Source of the DNA: Planococcus halocryophilus
Lineage (GTDB): Bacteria > Bacillota > Bacilli > Bacillales_A > Planococcaceae
Assembly: GCF_001687585.2 (NCBI RefSeq)
Contig: NZ_CP016537.2
Span: 1,832,001-1,896,000, forward strand
Reading direction: 5' to 3'
DNA: 64,000 nucleotides
Positions 30,031-50,397 of this stretch are shown here, piece after piece; the stretch's first letter is position 1; the number at the start of each line of letters is the position of its first letter. The notes beneath the pieces are model-generated. The model did not search any database, had not been told where the DNA came from, and saw only the letters and a list, made by a program, of their open reading frames with translations. The translations under genes and the position numbers were made by a program.

Positions 30031-31209
30031 ATGAAATCAAATAAACTCGTATTATCAACATTATTGCTTAATCTATTTATCGCATTTTTAGGAATTGGAC
30101 TCGTCATTCCTGTTACCCCAACCATCATGAACGAATTAAACATTTCAGGGACTGTTGTCGGTTATATGGTTTCCGCTTTTGCATTAGCTCAACTCATCGT
30201 TTCTCCCATTGCCGGACGTTGGGTAGACAATATCGGACGTAAACCGATGATTATTATCGGCTTGCTCATTTTTAGTATTTCCGAATTTTTATTCGGTATT
30301 GGACAAACCGTTGAAGTGCTGTTTGCTTCACGAATTCTCGGCGGTATCAGTGCTGCATTTATCATGCCGGCAGTTACAGCTTACATTGCCGACATTACAA
30401 CAAGTAGCACGCGTCCAAAAGCTTTAGGTTATATGTCGGCCGCAATTTCGACTGGATTTATCATAGGCCCTGGAATTGGTGGATTTTTAGCAGACATTAG
30501 CACCCGTCTGCCGTTCTTCTTTGCAGCTGGCTTTGGCTTGTTCGCGACAATATTATCGCTAATCACATTGACAGAGCCCGATCGTAGTTATGAAGTAGAA
30601 GAGAATTTTCACCCTATTCCCAAAGCTGGTTTTAAGAAGATTTTCTCTCCTATGTATTCAATCGCGTTTATGGTGATCTTTATTTCTTCATTCGGACTGG
30701 CTGCTTTTGAGTCGTTGTTTGCGCTATTTGTCGACCATAAATTTGGCTTTACCGCAAAAGACATTGCCGTCATTATTTCACTTGGCGCCATTGTCGGAGT
30801 GATTTTCCAAGTAGGCTTGTTTGATAAACTGACTCGTTGGTTTGGCGAAATTCGCTTGATTCGCTATAGTTTACTCGTTTCTACAAGTCTCGTCTTCATC
30901 ATGACGTTTGTTTCGAGTTATTGGTCGATTCTCCTTGTGACCATGTTGGTGTTTGTCGGATTTGATTTAATGCGCCCCGCTGTCACAACTTATTTATCAA
31001 GAATTGCCGGAAACGAACAAGGCTTTGCCGGTGGAATGAACTCGATGTTTACAAGTCTCGGGAATATTTTTGGTCCGATTGTCGGCGGAATTTTGTTCGA
31101 CATCGATTTAAACTATCCCTTCTACTTCGCGACCGCCGTTTTAGGAGCAGGAATAGCGTTGACGTATTTGTGGAAACGCCCAGCCTTTTCAGAAACTAAA
31201 TTGGTTTAA
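30031..31209 (+). CDS. MFS multidrug efflux transporter, NorA/Bmr-like
   Basis: A 392-residue 12-segment major facilitator of the DHA1 group. Motif A (GRWVDNIGRKPM) lies between segments 2 and 3 and motif C (GFIIGPGIGGFLAD) in segment 5, both typical of drug:H+ antiporters. Overall order resembles NorA and Bmr. ATG preceded by AAGGAGATCG. It forms an operon with the TetR regulator. The exact drugs cannot be told. Complete, in contrast to the broken MFS gene 2 kb away. Confidence 0.9.
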   Translation: MKSNKLVLSTLLLNLFIAFLGIGLVIPVTPTIMNELNISGTVVGYMVSAFALAQLIVSPIAGRWVDNIGRKPMIIIGLLIFSISEFLFGIGQTVEVLFASRILGGISAAFIMPAVTAYIADITTSSTRPKALGYMSAAISTGFIIGPGIGGFLADISTRLPFFFAAGFGLFATILSLITLTEPDRSYEVEENFHPIPKAGFKKIFSPMYSIAFMVIFISSFGLAAFESLFALFVDHKFGFTAKDIAVIISLGAIVGVIFQVGLFDKLTRWFGEIRLIRYSLLVSTSLVFIMTFVSSYWSILLVTMLVFVGFDLMRPAVTTYLSRIAGNEQGFAGGMNSMFTSLGNIFGPIVGGILFDIDLNYPFYFATAVLGAGIALTYLWKRPAFSETKLV

Positions 31210-31218
31210 TTTAGTTAA

Positions 31219-31270
31219 TAAACCCCAAGTAAGAAGTCGATTTTCTGCTTTCTTGTTTGGGGTTTTGTGT
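31219..31270 (+). terminator. Long intrinsic terminator
   Basis: AAACCCCAA-GTAAGAAG pairs with CTTTCTTG-TTGGGGTTTT around an 11-nt loop, with T-rich ending; follows the MFS gene. Confidence 0.8.
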
Positions 31271-31300
31271 TTTTACCGGTTGTTGGTTTAAGGGTACTTG

Positions 31301-31426
31301 TTTGTTTGCAGGAAGTTGGGGTTTATTTGCAGAATAGACGTGGTTGTTTGCAAGATCGCTCTATTTGTTTGCGCGAAATCCGAATTTGTTTGCGGAATAT
31401 ACTAGTTTGTTTGCAGATCTGCCTAT
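31301..31426 (+). repeat. Array A: six 21-bp direct repeats (TTTGTTTGC units)
   Basis: Six consecutive units of exactly 21 bp, each opening with TTTGTTTGC or a close form (TTTATTTGC, GTTGTTTGC); the C of TTTGC falls at 31309, 31330, 31351, 31372, 31393 and 31414. The 12 bases that follow vary. Same strand as arrays B, C and D. The reading frame through it gives a CLQ/CLR heptad repeat running into the pseudogene, which I take as chance because 21 is a multiple of 3. Confidence 0.92.
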
Positions 31427-31470
31427 TTCCAATATTTACGCTATGTTTTTCTCTAGAGAGGAGTGAGCTA

Positions 31471-31992
31471 ATGAAAACCAGAAAAGCGACTGAACAAGAT
31501 GCACCGGGAATTGCGAAAGTCCACGTCGATAGTTGGAAAACTACGTATAAAGAGATTCTGCCTAGCGCATTTTTAACGAGCTTGTCCTATGAGTAACGGA
31601 CAACTCTATGGGAAAACAACATTGCCGACAAGAGCAATTACATCGTTGTTTCAGAAACTGACGAAGGCCACATCACCGGATTTGGTACGGCTTCGAAAAG
31701 AGATACGAATACGGTAGCTAACTCTGGGGATTTAACTTCTATCTATTTGCTCGATGAATATCACAGTCAAGGAATTGGAAAATTGCTGATGAAAGCATTA
31801 TTTCTTCAATTTAAAAAACTAAGTTATGAAAAAGTCTTTGTCGAAGTTCTTGAAGATAATAAAACACGATTTTTCTACGAGTATTACGGAGCACAGTTGA
31901 TTGATACCGTGCAACTCCAATTTGGCGAAATAGTAGTTAATGAACTGATTTATGAATGGACAAATATTGATGAAGTTCTAGAAATGCTATAG
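31471..31992 (+). pseudogene. GNAT acetyltransferase with one premature stop
   Basis: The frame starts MKTRKATEQDAPGIAKVHVD after AGAGAGGAG and reads a normal GNAT of 173 residues, but codon 42 is TAA (31594-31596): LTSLSYE-stop-RTTLWENN. The same frame continues to a full acetyl-CoA site (EYHSQGIGKLLMKALF) and the usual end. CAA (Gln) to TAA is a one-base change and Gln is usual at this SYExR position in relatives, so this looks like a recent nonsense mutation. A sequencing error is possible. Confidence 0.85.
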
Positions 31993-32002
31993 TCTTTCAA
32001 AA

Positions 32003-32038
32003 CAAAAAACCGTGTTTCAAAAGAAATACGGTTTTTGG
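32003..32038. terminator. Intrinsic terminator, bidirectional
   Basis: AAAAACCGTGTTTC-AAAA-GAAATACGGTTTTT, one mismatch, between the acetyltransferase pseudogene and the converging GNAT gene. Confidence 0.85.
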
Positions 32039-32089
32039 AACAGTCTATTGTTCAAAGCTGTTACGCAGCTATAATATTATTTATCAGTT

Positions 32090-32566
32090 TTACTTCTTTG
32101 ATTGGAATTGATGCTTTTGCTTCGTCAATTCCCAATAAACCATATCGCCTTTTTTCTCAACTTGCTCCATCCCCACTTTTTGCAGAACCCGGATTGATCC
32201 GCTATTTTCTAATCTGGTTTCTGCAACCACTTTCTCTACTACCAATAAATCAAGTGCCCACTTTACAAGGCTTTCGACAGATTCGGTCGCATAGCCCATA
32301 TGCCAGCAAGATTCTAGAAAACCATAACCGACTTCCACTTCCTTTTTAGAATTCGGCGCTCCTTTAAATCCAGCATCTCCAATAATCATGCCATCTGAAT
32401 TCCGAAGGACCAACCAACTTCCCCATCCATATAAAGTTGGGTCTTTCGACAGCTCTTTTATATGATTAAGAGATTGAGGTCCATTGTCGTAACCTTGTTT
32501 TTTCATCATCTCAATTGAACCACTATCACATGGCATTAATGTCAAGCGCTTAGTTTCTATTTTCAT
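32090..32566 (-). CDS. GNAT acetyltransferase of the RimJ/RimL type
   Basis: A 158-residue acetyltransferase beginning MKIETKRLTLMPCDSGSIEM, then IIGDAGFKGAPNSKKEVEVGYGF and GYATESVESLVKWAL, the acetyl-CoA site in its RimJ/L form (GYATE in place of GxGxG), and RLENSGSIRVLQKVGMEQVEKKG at the end. Acceptor unknown. Ribosome binding site AAAAAGGTGAT. Intact, with its neighbours on both sides broken. Confidence 0.88.
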   Translation of the reverse strand: MKIETKRLTLMPCDSGSIEMMKKQGYDNGPQSLNHIKELSKDPTLYGWGSWLVLRNSDGMIIGDAGFKGAPNSKKEVEVGYGFLESCWHMGYATESVESLVKWALDLLVVEKVVAETRLENSGSIRVLQKVGMEQVEKKGDMVYWELTKQKHQFQSKK

Positions 32567-32646
32567 CTTCTACCATCACCTTTTTTTAAAGACATAATAT
32601 CTTTTCCTCATTCAAATCTGCTAGTAGGCAAATCTTGTTTGTATTT

Positions 32647-33894
32647 TTAAATCATACGAGCTTTTTTCAGGTCTTCGGTGTCTTCCTCATACCACCTCGA
32701 ATATTTCGGATGCCAAACGGCAAATGAATAAATAATTGCGGTTGTTGACATAATTATAGATAGTGATGCAATTGTTAATTTCAACGAAATAATGTCTGCG
32801 AGAAAGCCCATTGCCAAGATGAAAAAAATTTGAAAGACACTTTGAAACAATTGAAAAACGCTCGTCACTCTGCCCATTACCGAAACTGGAATATTGTTTT
32901 GATAAAACGTTGCAATGCCTGCATTTAAAAAGACATTAAAAAAACCGAGTATGATAAAGCCAACCGCAATCGATACGAACGACCAAGAAAATGCGTAAAT
33001 AACGTATCCTCCTGACATCATTAACATGCCGATTACTATCATGGAGCGGATCGAGATTTTATTCGAAATGAATGTCAGAAATAACGCGCCACTCACCGAA
33101 CCGATTCCAGTAATGCTGATGAGCAAGCTATATTCCACTCTACTCAAGCCAATTACTTGTTAAGTAAAAACCACTTCCTGAACATCCATCGCAAATGAAA
33201 ATAGCATGACTGCCAAAAAGCCAAGATAGATGGCAGACACGTACTTTTTGTCTGCCATCAAATCCAACACAACGTTAAAATCTTTGACCACTTGCGAAAA
33301 AGTTAGTGCAGGGATTTCTTCCTGTACAATTTTTTCAGTTTCTGGCAATAAAGACAACAAGAATGCTGCAATCAAGAAAAACGCCGCATTCAACCACAAC
33401 GTGACTGTTAAATTTGCCAGAAAAATAAGCGATCCGCCAATTGCGGGTCCGATAATAAACGCGCCAGATGATGTAAATGAACGTAGCGAATTAAATCGCT
33501 TCCGCTTTGCTGGTGGGACTAGCATCGTGACATAAGTCATTGAGGCTGGTCCAAAAAACGCTTTAGCAATACTAAGAAAGACAAGAATTGTATAAACCGC
33601 AAAAAGACTAGAAGCAAAAGGAATCAACGCAATAAATACTGCTCGTAAAATATATGTCACCATTACGATTTTCTTCTTACTTCTGTAATCGATAAAACTT
33701 CCTGTCCAAAATTTTGTGACGATATTGGTCAATGGACTAATCACCCATAACCCTGCAACTGCAGCGGCGGATCCTGTCATTTGGTAGACGATGATGTTGA
33801 TTGCTACGAGATAGATAAAGTCTCCAATACTCGCGATTCCTAAAGACCCCAGCAAAATCGCTGGCACTTTCCAATCTTTCGATGTTTGTTTCAA
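32647..33894 (-). pseudogene. MFS transporter split by one in-frame stop
   Basis: A 12-segment MFS_3-type transporter of about 415 codons. The frame runs from a TTG (site GGGAGGA) through IGDFIYLVAINIIVYQMTG to VQEVVFT, meets TAA at 33160-33162 (about codon 245), and continues in the same frame with QVIGLSRVEYSLLISITGIG to the normal end with six more segments. Again CAA to TAA would explain it. Both pieces could be read as separate proteins, but neither is a complete transporter. Best taken as a nonsense mutant or, less likely, a sequencing error. Confidence 0.85.
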
Positions 33895-33960
33895 GTTAGA
33901 TCCTCCCTTAGGCTCCAAACTTTCGTGCGTTTTATTGCTTGCAACTAAAAGATAGTTGAG

Positions 33961-34066
33961 TTTATTTGCGAGATGTCAGGGTTTTATTTGCGCAATACGC
34001 TCTGTTGTTTGCACTATATTGTCGTTTGTTTGCACTATCTCCTATTTTGTTTGCAAAAGATAAAAG
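33961..34066 (+). repeat. Array B: five 21-bp direct repeats
   Basis: Units with the C of TTTGC at 33969, 33991, 34012, 34033 and 34054, spacing 22, 21, 21, 21. First two units have TTTATTTGC, the rest KTTGTTTGC. It fills the gap between the MFS pseudogene and the HIT gene, both on the minus strand, yet the repeats read on the plus strand as in the other arrays. The last unit carries GCAAAA, like those of arrays C and D. Confidence 0.9.
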
Positions 34067-34071
34067 CACTC

Positions 34072-34476
34072 TTATTTTCTTACCCTTTTGTTCTCTGGTT
34101 GCTTCAGCCAATGACGTAGTCCTTTACCTGCTAAAGGTTCATCATGATAGCGCGGAATGACATGAAGGTGACTATGCTGAATCGACTGGTTCGAAGCCTC
34201 GCCCACATTCCACCCAAGTGTATAGCCATCTGGGGCATAGATTCGATCTAAATATTCTTTCGCTTTTTGCAATAACTCATATGTATCATCCCACTCGTCT
34301 TTTGTTAAATCGAACGTTGTTGCACGGTGCTGCTTCGGCACGATCACCCCACTGCCTTCTAGGACATCTTGTTGCTTGTCATGTTGGAGAAAATAACAGG
34401 TTTTATTTTCAACTACGATATTTTGATTGTGGTCTTTTGTTGGATTACAAAAAGGACAATTGGTTTCATAAGACAT
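34072..34476 (-). CDS. HIT family hydrolase
   Basis: A 134-residue histidine-triad protein. The HIT motif is HSHLHVIPR; the N-terminal CPFCNPTKDHNQNIVVEN is the usual CPFC/zinc-like start. HIT proteins are nucleotide hydrolases or transferases acting on adenosine phosphoramidates or dinucleotides. The 3-prime end of the upstream NUDIX gene overlaps its start by 11 bases, so they form an operon, a sensible pairing of two nucleotide-cleaving enzymes. Confidence 0.92.
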   Translation of the reverse strand: MSYETNCPFCNPTKDHNQNIVVENKTCYFLQHDKQQDVLEGSGVIVPKQHRATTFDLTKDEWDDTYELLQKAKEYLDRIYAPDGYTLGWNVGEASNQSIQHSHLHVIPRYHDEPLAGKGLRHWLKQPENKRVRK

Positions 34477-34903
34477 GCTTGTTCACCTCTGGTATATAAT
34501 TTGGTGGGGTAATGAAAGTCAGTAGCAATTCCAAGTCTTCTGGATAATCATGTTCAATTGTTAAAAGATCGTCATAGTTTTGCCAAGCGATTTCTTCAAT
34601 TTCGTCATCTGGGTCTGTATACATGATTTCTCCAGTACTTATTGTGCAATAAAAATAATATGTTGTTACATTGAAATTTCCGATAACCATATTTTTGGTA
34701 TGAATGGCTTTTCCCACTGACACGCTAAGCCCTGTCTCTTCGTGTATTTCTCTTACACACGCTTGTTCCACAGTTTCTCCGTTTTCAATTTCTCCTGATG
34801 GCACACTCCATCTTTTAGTCGCTTTTTCTTTAACCATCAAGATTTTGTTGTCCAACACGACAACTCCGGCCGCTCCAATCCAAGATTTTCTAGCTTTAGT
34901 CAT
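34466..34903 (-). CDS. NUDIX hydrolase
   Basis: A 145-residue NUDIX protein. The box is complete: GEIENGETVEQACVREIHEE followed by TGL, matching GX5EX7REUXEEXGU. The N-terminus GAAGVVVLDNKILMVKEKATK is the usual first strand. Substrates of the family are nucleoside diphosphates linked to another group; no subfamily can be named. Overlaps the HIT gene downstream. ATG preceded by AAGGAGTGTTCAA. Confidence 0.92.
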   Translation of the reverse strand: MTKARKSWIGAAGVVVLDNKILMVKEKATKRWSVPSGEIENGETVEQACVREIHEETGLSVSVGKAIHTKNMVIGNFNVTTYYFYCTISTGEIMYTDPDDEIEEIAWQNYDDLLTIEHDYPEDLELLLTFITPPNYIPEVNKHVL

Positions 34904-34925
34904 TTGAACACTCCTTTGGAAATGC

Positions 34926-34999
34926 TAGTTACTGCAGTTGTTTGCGCAAAATCCCATTATGTTTGGGCGAAATCTTACTTTATTTGCAAAATCGTCACT
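34926..34999 (+). repeat. Array C: three 21-bp direct repeats with a conserved leading flank
   Basis: C of TTTGC at 34945, 34966 (as TTTGG) and 34987, spacing exactly 21. The first unit is preceded by TAGTTACTGCA, the same flank found in front of array D. Lies between two minus-strand NUDIX genes. The unit TTTGCGCAAA is itself a palindrome here. Confidence 0.88.
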
Positions 35000-35035
35000 C
35001 ACCTAACTACGCCGCACGCTCATTCACTATCAAAT

Positions 35036-35425
35036 TTACAAATTTTTTATATTTCCCATAATGCTTCTGGGTCTAATATCTAAGGAATCAAGAATATTGA
35101 TATTCAGCCAGACTGGACGATATGTACCTCGCGCTCTTTTCTCCTCTACAAACTCTGCACCCAATCCGGAACCAAAATTGCCCCCTGTGATAGTTGCTCT
35201 AAAAAAGTAATGAGTGCCATTCCACTCGACTTTTTTGAGACATTCCAAAATTTCAACTTCAAGTCCGGTTTCTTCCAAAGCTTCTCTTTTCGCGGCTTCT
35301 TTTGGTGTTTCACCTTTTTTAATTCCTCCGCCTGGAAAAACAAAATAAGTATCCCCATTTTTTACTCGTTCAATAAAAGCAACCTCGCTATTTTTTATGA
35401 GGATCACTCTCGCAGAATCTCGCAT
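35036..35425 (-). CDS. NUDIX hydrolase
   Basis: A 129-residue NUDIX protein: MRDSARVILIKNSEVAFIER, then GGGIKKGETPKEAAKREALE and ETGLEVEILE form the complete box. Ribosome binding site AAAAGGTG precedes this ATG; an ATG eight codons earlier is less well placed. It differs from the other NUDIX gene 130 bases away, so the pair are paralogues, not a duplication. Substrate unknown. Confidence 0.9.
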   Translation of the reverse strand: MRDSARVILIKNSEVAFIERVKNGDTYFVFPGGGIKKGETPKEAAKREALEETGLEVEILECLKKVEWNGTHYFFRATITGGNFGSGLGAEFVEEKRARGTYRPVWLNINILDSLDIRPRSIMGNIKNL

Positions 35426-35470
35426 CGTGTTCACACCTTTTCCATTCACTTAAACTGTTTATTTACATCT

Positions 35471-35586
35471 TAGTTACTGCAGTTGTTTGCGGGATACAAG
35501 GCGTTGTTTGCGCATTAATCTATTTTGTTTGCAGGAACACTCTATTTGTTTGCGCAAAATTCCACTTTGTTTGCAAAACCAGTAAT
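35471..35586 (+). repeat. Array D: five 21-bp direct repeats with the same leading flank as array C
   Basis: C of TTTGC at 35490, 35511, 35532, 35553 and 35574, spacing exactly 21 in all. Preceded by TAGTTACTGCA as in array C, and closing with GCAAAA. Between a NUDIX gene and a membrane-protein gene, both on the minus strand. Confidence 0.92.
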
Positions 35587-35618: not shown

Positions 35619-36098
35619 CTACAAACTCGTCCTTCTCTTCAAACTCCATCCCGCTCCCACCACAAAACAAATCACGACGACTCCAAAGAACGTCAATGGA
35701 TTAAAGAATAAATGATTTGAAAATACGTTTAGCAATGCGAATTCTTTTGGATCGCTATATGCCTCTTTCGTCTCTACTATATAAGTTCGAAAGCGATCAG
35801 CTGCACGAATGGTCCATAAAGCTGTGCCTACTAAATAAATCAAACTTAATGAAATCACAATAATTGTCTTTTTTCGACTAAGCCATTTCTCTGCCAGCCG
35901 CATCGACAACTCAATAGTTCCATACAAGAAATAAAATATAAATGGCATAAGAACTACAGGGAAAAATAAAGCCGGATTGCCATTCCCACCCCGATAATCA
36001 TTATTAAGAACCGGAGCAGTCAAGTAATTCATCCAGTAAAAAACAGTGATTGTTAAAATGGCGGACACCCCATATAATGCCATCAATATTTTATTCAC
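35619..36098 (-). CDS. Membrane protein of unknown function
   Basis: About 159 residues with four hydrophobic segments; the last ends with WSLKRRTSL. A larger frame begins 44 codons upstream, but its first residues come from the terminator hairpin of the M1 peptidase gene, so I start at the GTG (VNKILMALYGVSA) with TGGAG upstream. Family not recognised. It could be transcribed from its own promoter or by read-through. Confidence 0.62.
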   Translation of the reverse strand: MNKILMALYGVSAILTITVFYWMNYLTAPVLNNDYRGGNGNPALFFPVVLMPFIFYFLYGTIELSMRLAEKWLSRKKTIIVISLSLIYLVGTALWTIRAADRFRTYIVETKEAYSDPKEFALLNVFSNHLFFNPLTFFGVVVICFVVGAGWSLKRRTSL

Positions 36099-36197
36099 AG
36101 TGAATCGCTCCAGTCGAGTTAGAGTCAAAAGCCATATGGTACTATTCTCCATATGGCAAATAAACCCTTTAAAATTTTCCCGATAAGAAATATACAT

Positions 36198-36232
36198 AAA
36201 AAAAGAAGCTGTAAGTCCAGCTTCTTCCAAAC
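36198..36232 (-). terminator. Intrinsic terminator after the M1 peptidase gene
   Basis: GAAGCTG...CAGCTTC-type stem, AGAAGCT-G/GGACTTAC-AGCTTCT, followed by T7 on the minus strand. Confidence 0.82.
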
Positions 36233-49869: not shown

Positions 49870-50397
49870 ATGATTAACAAAAAATTTAGTTTTATTCTTG
49901 CGGCAGGTATTTTATCACTCTCCGCTTGTGGTCAAGAACAACCTGTAACCGAGGAAACAACAGAGCCTATGGCTGAAGAACAAGAAAGTACGACTGAAGA
50001 AACAACAACAGAAGAACCGGAAGAAGAAAGTACTGAAGAAGAAGGTACCGAAGAAGAAGGTGCTGAAGAAGAAGGTGCTGAAGAAGAAGGTGCTGAAGAA
50101 GAGCCTACACAAGAAAGCGCGCCGGAAGCAATGAGCGGCACAGCATCGAACCTGTTATCTAATGGCGAAACAACAAGTTTTGTCTTTAATGAAGCTGGTG
50201 AATTTTCGGTATTCTGTGAGCCACATCCGGTTATGCAAATGACCGTACTGGTAGAAGAAGGTGCAGAAGCCATGGATAGCGTAGAAGTTGATATCGCTGA
50301 TTATGCATTTGGCGAAGAAACCATCACTGTTGCTCCAGGAACAACAATTGTTTGGACAAACCAAGATCAAGTTCAGCATAATGTAGCTTTCAAATAA
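49870..50397 (+). CDS. Cupredoxin (blue-copper) lipoprotein with permuted strand order
   Basis: A 175-residue lipoprotein, lipobox SLSAC (Cys20), with a Glu/Thr-rich low-complexity linker (about 24-85, GAEEE repeated three times), then a cupredoxin-like domain. The usual last part, SFVFNEAGEFSVFCEPHPVM (Cys116, His119, Met122), comes before the usual first part, VEVDIADYAFGEETITVAPG then WTNQDQVQHNVAF (His170), after which the protein stops. All four type-1 copper ligands are thus present but in permuted order. Copper binding is inferred. AAACGAGGAGG site. See findings. Confidence 0.85.
   Translation: MINKKFSFILAAGILSLSACGQEQPVTEETTEPMAEEQESTTEETTTEEPEEESTEEEGTEEEGAEEEGAEEEGAEEEPTQESAPEAMSGTASNLLSNGETTSFVFNEAGEFSVFCEPHPVMQMTVLVEEGAEAMDSVEVDIADYAFGEETITVAPGTTIVWTNQDQVQHNVAFK

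Follow-up and report, generated by a model that had tools for sequence, protein, structure and literature searches.

We analysed a 64,000-nucleotide stretch of the Planococcus halocryophilus chromosome (hereafter the window; C1:1832001-1896000 of G000, a one-contig genome of 3.42 Mb) that carries four intergenic arrays of a 21-bp direct repeat. Our data show that these arrays belong to a repeat family dispersed across this genome and others, and that arrays of this kind lie beside genes for NERD-domain proteins. On the basis of sequence comparison, we propose that the arrays probably form the DNA component of a chromosomal two-part system in which a NERD-domain protein carrying a zinc ribbon would be the partner.

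Phased arrays and the NERD genes beside them

The window arrays hold 19 units (6, 5, 3 and 5), all on the + strand and spaced at 21 bp except for a single 22-bp interval (Table 1). Each unit consists of KTTRTTTGC and a 12-bp spacer; the first five positions of the spacer tend towards RSRAT and the others vary almost freely. The last unit is rich in A (TTTGTTTGCAAAA...AAAAA). This consensus was built from 137 internal and 35 last units of three genomes (G000, G006 and G002). In the window, TTTGTTTGC occurs 11 times on the + strand and never on the - strand. Among 40 dinucleotide-preserving shuffles of the window, 37 contained no array of three or more units and three contained one, compared to the four observed. 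Re-reading of the sequence bore out a preliminary description of the window, which had reported the four arrays with this unit count, strand and phase, the run of the last units of arrays B, C and D into GCAAAA, and a flank, TAGTTACTGCA, common to C and D.

We scanned G000 for TTRTTTGC-N13-TTRTTTGC and found 44 phased pairs, versus none for the reversed control. The window arrays belong to the GCAAACAAA family (the same as the TTTGTTTGC family), of which G000 contains 12 arrays of at least three units between 628 and 1920 kb, the window's four included; the family is thus not confined to the region first described. The same pattern is present in 37 of 46 Planococcus genomes, nine of which have one pair only (such single matches can be chance or coding), and in 67 of 200 genomes of a family sample. 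A three-unit scan of named genomes returned at least 119 stretches, 80 of which were examined. Among the matches listed, Bacillales are represented by Planococcus, Planomicrobium, Neobacillus, Gottfriedia, Metabacillus, Filobacillus, Ureibacillus, Lysinibacillus, Fictibacillus, Cytobacillus and others, and the core varies by lineage (TTTATTTGC, TTTAGTTGC, TTTCGTTGC and so on). Mean spacer identity among these matches was below 0.6 in 31 of 39 Bacillales arrays of at least four units, versus 0 of 14 from other taxa; these 14 look like ordinary tandem repeats.

Comparing the proteins shared across 20 array-rich loci from several genera, we found that the most widespread was a NERD-domain protein (7 loci, 4 genera). 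Clustering of 81 flanking proteins gave no dominant family (at most four members; NERD, two). All eight NERD proteins scored against PF08378 (NERD) reached 47-68 bits, compared to a gathering cut-off of 22.1. The branch paired with arrays also carries a CxxC-CxxC zinc ribbon and a C-terminal helical part, which may be a winged helix as read from secondary structure alone. The predicted fold, from a search that covered mainly residues 37-191, is a PD-(D/E)XK nuclease with the D...ExK residues present, and all 49 NERD proteins examined retain the catalytic residues. A sequence search of PDB chains returned no credible relative, and PADLOC and NCBIfam gave only weak or far-below-cut-off matches over the NERD region, to PglW and MAD6.

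G000 encodes five NERD genes, each with its own 20-22-bp array and each array with a different core (Table 1). One of these genes (C1:1335310-1336272, with the start codon as chosen here), which follows an M42 peptidase gene half a megabase from the window, has GCAAACAAA-family arrays on either side. At least four of the five cores recur away from their own NERD gene. We identified dispersed arrays of GACAGTAT at 1549.9 kb, of GCGYAT at about 3254 and 3256 kb, and of TTACATGAACTTT at 622-625 kb; no dispersed CGCACCTC array was found in the part of G000 examined.

This pairing extends to other genomes. In a set of 61 loci fetched by their NERD genes, two of them without a usable frame, a strict array finder detected arrays at 19 of 28 loci encoding the zinc ribbon, 1 of 31 lacking it, and 1 of 136 control windows. 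A second set of 20 NERD loci from five genomes gave arrays at 16 of 19 ribbon loci, 0 of 1 non-ribbon locus and 3 of 155 control windows, and the three positive control windows contained arrays with NERD4 and NERD3 cores, like dispersed NERD-family arrays. Within this second set, G012 contributed 5 of 6 and G025 4 of 4; neither genome has an array of three units (a triple) of either of the two families searched for. On a tree of 49 NERD proteins, 36 of them with arrays, core class changed 10 times for nine classes, compared to a mean of 19.2 and never fewer than 15 changes for shuffled labels (n = 200), and core class thus tracks NERD phylogeny.

Where arrays lie on both flanks of a NERD gene (13 cases), they read in one direction, and are therefore not inverted transposon ends. 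The Lysinibacillus endophyticus NERD gene lies between arrays, and two Bacillus loci carry NERD fragments of 52 and 95 residues beside arrays, the 95-residue one being truncated where the locus ends. The Lysinibacillus member has homologues, with or without a zinc ribbon, named from Ureibacillus, Lysinibacillus, Metasolibacillus, Neobacillus, Peribacillus and Fictibacillus. Across 46 Planococcus genomes, the number of NERD genes correlates with the number of arrays (Spearman 0.80). Triples of the two searched families are found in 26 of 30 genomes with at least four NERD genes versus 2 of 16 with two or fewer, and the five genomes without NERD contain none.

Core conservation and placement behind genes

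With core identities biased upward because arrays are found by their core, a comparison of G000 with the related species G006 gave 99.7% identity at fixed core positions and 71.5% in the 12-bp spacer (45 aligned orthologous units), and the addition of G002 gave 93.5% across all nine core positions and 68.6% in the spacer (68 unit pairs). Four-fold sites of nearby genes are 65.2% identical between G000 and G006 (5613 sites). The G000-G006 comparison used nine of ten array pairs, omitting array B because its G006 copy carries array A units. At the M42 peptidase locus, whole alignments within a clade of five genomes gave identities of 0.979 for the core, 0.619 for the spacer and 0.554 for four-fold sites, and a clade of three genomes gave 1.000, 0.573 and 0.529. 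A conserved position and a core under purifying selection argue for a kept function rather than a fresh invader.

Behind the M42 gene in the 30 Planococcus genomes compared, we found GCAAACAAA-type cores in 22 (nine degenerate, some with two or three units), none in five (L297, L298, L299, L302 and L305), and a different 20-21-bp array with core TCATAGAA in three (L301, L303 and L307). A clade of nine genomes with off-consensus cores (G001, G005, G013, G014, G015, G018, G036, G040 and G043) gave 0.928 for the core, 0.808 for the spacer and 0.642 for four-fold sites; here conservation of the entire stretch exceeds that of four-fold sites, and the stretch has perhaps been taken over by another function. 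The G002 array at this locus (L101 / L287) has three units followed by an apparent insertion-sequence transposase start. The TCATAGAA family is present in 13 of 46 Planococcus genomes and 17 of 215 in an order sample (many genomes are common to both), with none for the reversed control; its triples are most numerous in G082 (148) and G236 (156) within the order-sample search.

To describe array position, we removed repeated sequences, dropped four arrays of near-identical units, and took genes from simple open-frame calls. Of the 93 unique arrays that remained, 45 are antisense and 9 sense in codirectional gaps, 28 lie in convergent and 3 in divergent gaps, and 8 have one geneless side. Divergent gaps account for 16% of the intergenic bases in the stretches of G000 that were sampled and hold 3 of the 85 arrays having genes on both sides. 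Antisense arrays read GCAAACAAA in the direction of the gene whose end they follow. Over all 77 cases with a preceding stop codon, the median distance from that codon to the array is 58 bp, and 58 arrays lie within 100 bp. The pooled orientation bias (p = 7e-7) is overstated because the genome sets overlap in part through orthologues; restricting the count to named Bacillales gives 23 versus 4 (p = 3e-4). Of 19 Planococcus arrays, with orthologues counted, 13 have an intrinsic terminator ahead of the first core; among control gene ends, 140 of 303 have one. Orientation is less clean in the TCATAGAA family, with 13 sense and 8 antisense rows in which loci are repeated.

The preliminary description of the window arrays had stressed that the strand stays constant while neighbouring genes differ in direction. 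Both observations are correct (the genes are + beside A and - beside B, C and D), but the strand is not arbitrary, as the family is usually antisense to the adjacent gene, array A excepted. A replication-oriented mark, also suggested there, is not borne out. Contig C1 begins with dnaA (identified by sequence) and its GC skew switches sign between 1.62 and 1.71 Mb; arrays before the switch occupy both strands (+ at 628, 630 and 1274 kb; - at 769, 1335, 1336 and 1402 kb) while all five beyond it are on +, and across genomes orientation follows the 3' end of the adjacent gene. Silencing of an accessory region is likewise unsupported, since the family is also found behind core genes, among them rpsD (named by sequence) and the M42 peptidase gene.

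A proposed two-part element and its rivals

With a fixed core, a drifting spacer, 20-22-bp phasing, no RNA structure and no consistent coding frame, the arrays would best be read as one-face protein-binding arrays of a dispersed repeat family, as first suggested. We propose that the NERD protein would bind one core per two helical turns, so that bound copies would line up on one face with one polarity. The core would be read by the zinc ribbon and C-terminal helices, and the PD-(D/E)XK centre may nick or cut DNA at the core. Nicking or cutting could spread copies of an array to further gene ends, in the way that RAYT duplicates REPINs, or could alternatively repair and homogenise arrays, and a filled array could act as a polar barrier behind the gene end. 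In its full form, which we put forward tentatively, this scheme would describe a new class of two-part element: a NERD nuclease would recognise and cut its cognate array and copy it behind terminators, where the filled array would form a polar barrier, with a REPIN-RAYT-like logic, an unrelated enzyme and DNA design, and several specificities per genome. The "mobile repeat family" of the preliminary description comes close to this logic.

Several points weigh against a NERD-array system. Adjacency of gene and array is not interaction, and the copying step is an inference. An MreB-like protein (by sequence) likewise spans three genera and 4 of the 20 array-rich loci. Because most non-ribbon NERD loci belong to other genera, the effect of the ribbon cannot be separated from that of taxon, and the strict finder gives no array at 9 of 28 ribbon NERD genes (of these nine, one, L398, has arrays that are evident on inspection, and five come from the off-consensus M42 genomes). 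The cores GCAAnnAAA and TCATAGAA are each found with two distant NERD clades. NERD class changes once on the 30-genome tree, reducing the co-occurrence to one independent contrast, and triples of both searched families are absent from four genomes with at least four NERD genes, two of which (G012 and G025) carry arrays with other cores. Pfam NERD occurs in nearly every genome of the order (249 of 261), so that its presence as such has no predictive value; the zinc-ribbon branch, not NERD at large, is the relevant group. Finally, the nine Planococcus genomes with off-consensus M42 cores have kept one or two NERD genes and conserved spacers (0.81 versus 0.64 at four-fold sites), which a simple account of decay or lost function does not explain.

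The placement data are also what would be expected if the main role of the arrays were that of polar protein roadblocks past gene ends that hold off read-through or antisense transcription, the nuclease fold being vestigial or regulatory. The antisense excess, the short distance from stop codons, the scarcity in divergent gaps and the frequent terminators all agree with such a role, and the stoperators of cluster A mycobacteriophages offer a precedent: they are asymmetric sites in short intergenic spaces whose orientation is tied to transcription (PMC9283540). Our arrays differ from stoperators in being chromosomal, tandem and beside zinc-ribbon NERD genes, with no phage match; stoperators are bound by a phage repressor that halts elongation. 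A pure barrier is at odds with the catalytic residues retained in all 49 NERD proteins, the presence of a GCAAACAAA array at only 12 places in G000, the existence of arrays without terminators (B and D in the window), and the mixed orientation of the TCATAGAA family. We consider this reading possible rather than probable, and it is compatible with a two-part system, not exclusive of it.

Other explanations account for less of the data. That NERD proteins recognise or cut read-through transcripts carrying gene-sense repeats is unlikely: with a terminator ahead of the array in 13 of 19 cases, RNA would rarely contain the array, 27 arrays showed no RNA structure beyond that of shuffles (mean z -0.21 and -0.39), and 20-22-bp phasing suits duplex DNA. 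A small-RNA reading was set aside because several arrays lie only 30-50 bp from the next start codon. Very little speaks for a selfish or neutral minisatellite, spread by slippage and gene conversion and linked to NERD by chance or hitch-hiking; G006 does show local duplication and array-to-array copying, but the core is kept while spacers drift, position is conserved at the M42 locus, and a repeat without a gene leaves the 16 of 19 versus 3 of 155 association unexplained. Least plausible of all are readings as Rho utilisation sites, as sites for segregation or nucleoid proteins, or as coding heptads. The low structure of the DNA at gene ends, the confinement of all 12 GCAAACAAA-family arrays to the terminus-containing part of the chromosome (0.63-1.92 Mb), and one frame that stays open through 12 of 19 arrays versus 6.9 expected would suit one or another of these. 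However, all 46 genomes have Rho irrespective of their arrays, the core is not the same from one species to the next, and the remaining five frames do not exceed the spacer-shuffled expectation, leaving no consistent frame, in line with the earlier view that the arrays are not coding. A search for a plasmid or phage origin gave no match at either level, DNA (array A) or protein (P0001). In viral contigs, 24 pattern matches reduced to three 3-unit arrays by a stricter finder, and the spacers compared were identical, as in ordinary repeats.

Plasmid iterons are phased direct repeats of about 20 bp, as are the arrays described here, for which no plasmid match was found. In CRISPR loci, long repeats alternate with acquired spacers about 30 bp in length. 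The 12-bp spacers of our arrays instead diverge by mutation at fixed positions, and the preliminary description was right to set CRISPR aside. The closest parallel to the proposed NERD-array system is REPIN-RAYT, with which it shares a separate repeat class beside each enzyme paralogue, extragenic dispersal of copies, vertical inheritance and a greater number of repeats where the enzyme is present (PMC3116915, PMC8049555). Similarly, 5 of 5 G000 NERD genes and 16 of 19 ribbon genes of the second set lie beside their own repeat class, and copies of one class are dispersed outside genes (GCAAACAAA in 12 arrays, and other cores too). In contrast, RAYT is a tyrosine (HuH/Y1) transposase, whereas our proteins are PF08378 members with a predicted PD-(D/E)XK fold, and REPINs are palindromic and hairpin-forming, whereas our arrays are asymmetric direct repeats with 20-22-bp phasing and no structure. 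Lacking both the transposase type and the palindrome, the system is not a REPIN-RAYT member despite its similar logic. Staphylococcus aureus SmdA shares a NERD domain above the Pfam cut-off; the array-linked branch adds the CxxC-CxxC ribbon, the C-terminal helical part and the DNA arrays. The 2022 SmdA paper states that, to its authors' knowledge, the role of NERD in bacteria had never been studied (PMC9040797).

Among the papers listed by searches of open-licence PMC text, which covers neither subscription papers nor most preprints, we found no earlier description of the arrays or of a NERD-repeat pairing. NERD proteins are widespread, and their zinc-ribbon branch now has predicted DNA targets that are testable paralogue by paralogue. 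If true, the NERD pairing would mean that the plan known from REPIN-RAYT, an enzyme with dispersed cognate repeats, had been invented independently a second time. It also offers one explanation for an intergenic repeat class across Bacillales.

The window arrays and their neighbours

Table 1. Positions of the window arrays (window coordinates) and of the arrays adjoining NERD genes in G000 (chromosome coordinates).
Feature	Position	Strand	Units or core
Array A	31301-31426	+	six 21-bp units, KTTRTTTGC+12
Array B	33961-34066	+	five units; first interval 22 bp
Array C	34937-34999	+	three units; middle core degenerate (TATGTTTGG)
Array D	35482-35586	+	five units
NERD-adjoining array	1335 kb		GCAAACAAA
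NERD-adjoining array	1409 kb		CGCACCTC
NERD-adjoining array	3091 kb		GCGTATTT
NERD-adjoining array	2820 kb		GGACAGTAT
NERD-adjoining array	2710 kb		TTACATGAACTTT

Array A is the exception to the family's orientation rule, as its flanking genes share its strand: an MFS gene with its stop at 31209 and an interrupted GNAT gene starting near 31471. A counterpart lies at the matching place in G006. Arrays B, C and D are antisense to their flanking genes, as is typical of the family. A HIT-domain gene on the - strand (stop codon at 34072) precedes array B in gene sense; because it follows a - strand gene end, array B reads GCAAACAAA in gene sense. A NUDIX gene on the - strand (35036-35449) similarly precedes array C, and array D sits after the stop of a - strand gene (35619-36230) with no Pfam match. 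No intrinsic terminator was found before array B or array D. The G006 counterpart of array D has six units. Elsewhere in G006, a near-identical array lies 195 bp from another array (L094 8408-8728), and array B carries units of array A, 1.3 kb off (L096 8104-9516).

Two genes near the arrays, the GNAT gene (31471-31992) and an MFS transporter gene (32647-33918), each contain an in-frame stop codon, and this gene group therefore seems to be decaying. Open frames cross arrays at 31267-31596 of the window and at 8086-9273 of L088, encoding heptad peptides such as ANKxxxx and CLRxxRx; automatic annotation may thus give spurious or N-terminally extended proteins at such sites. The window has no Rfam match at gathering score. 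A separate 15/30-bp tandem repeat lies within an open frame at 50010-50115.

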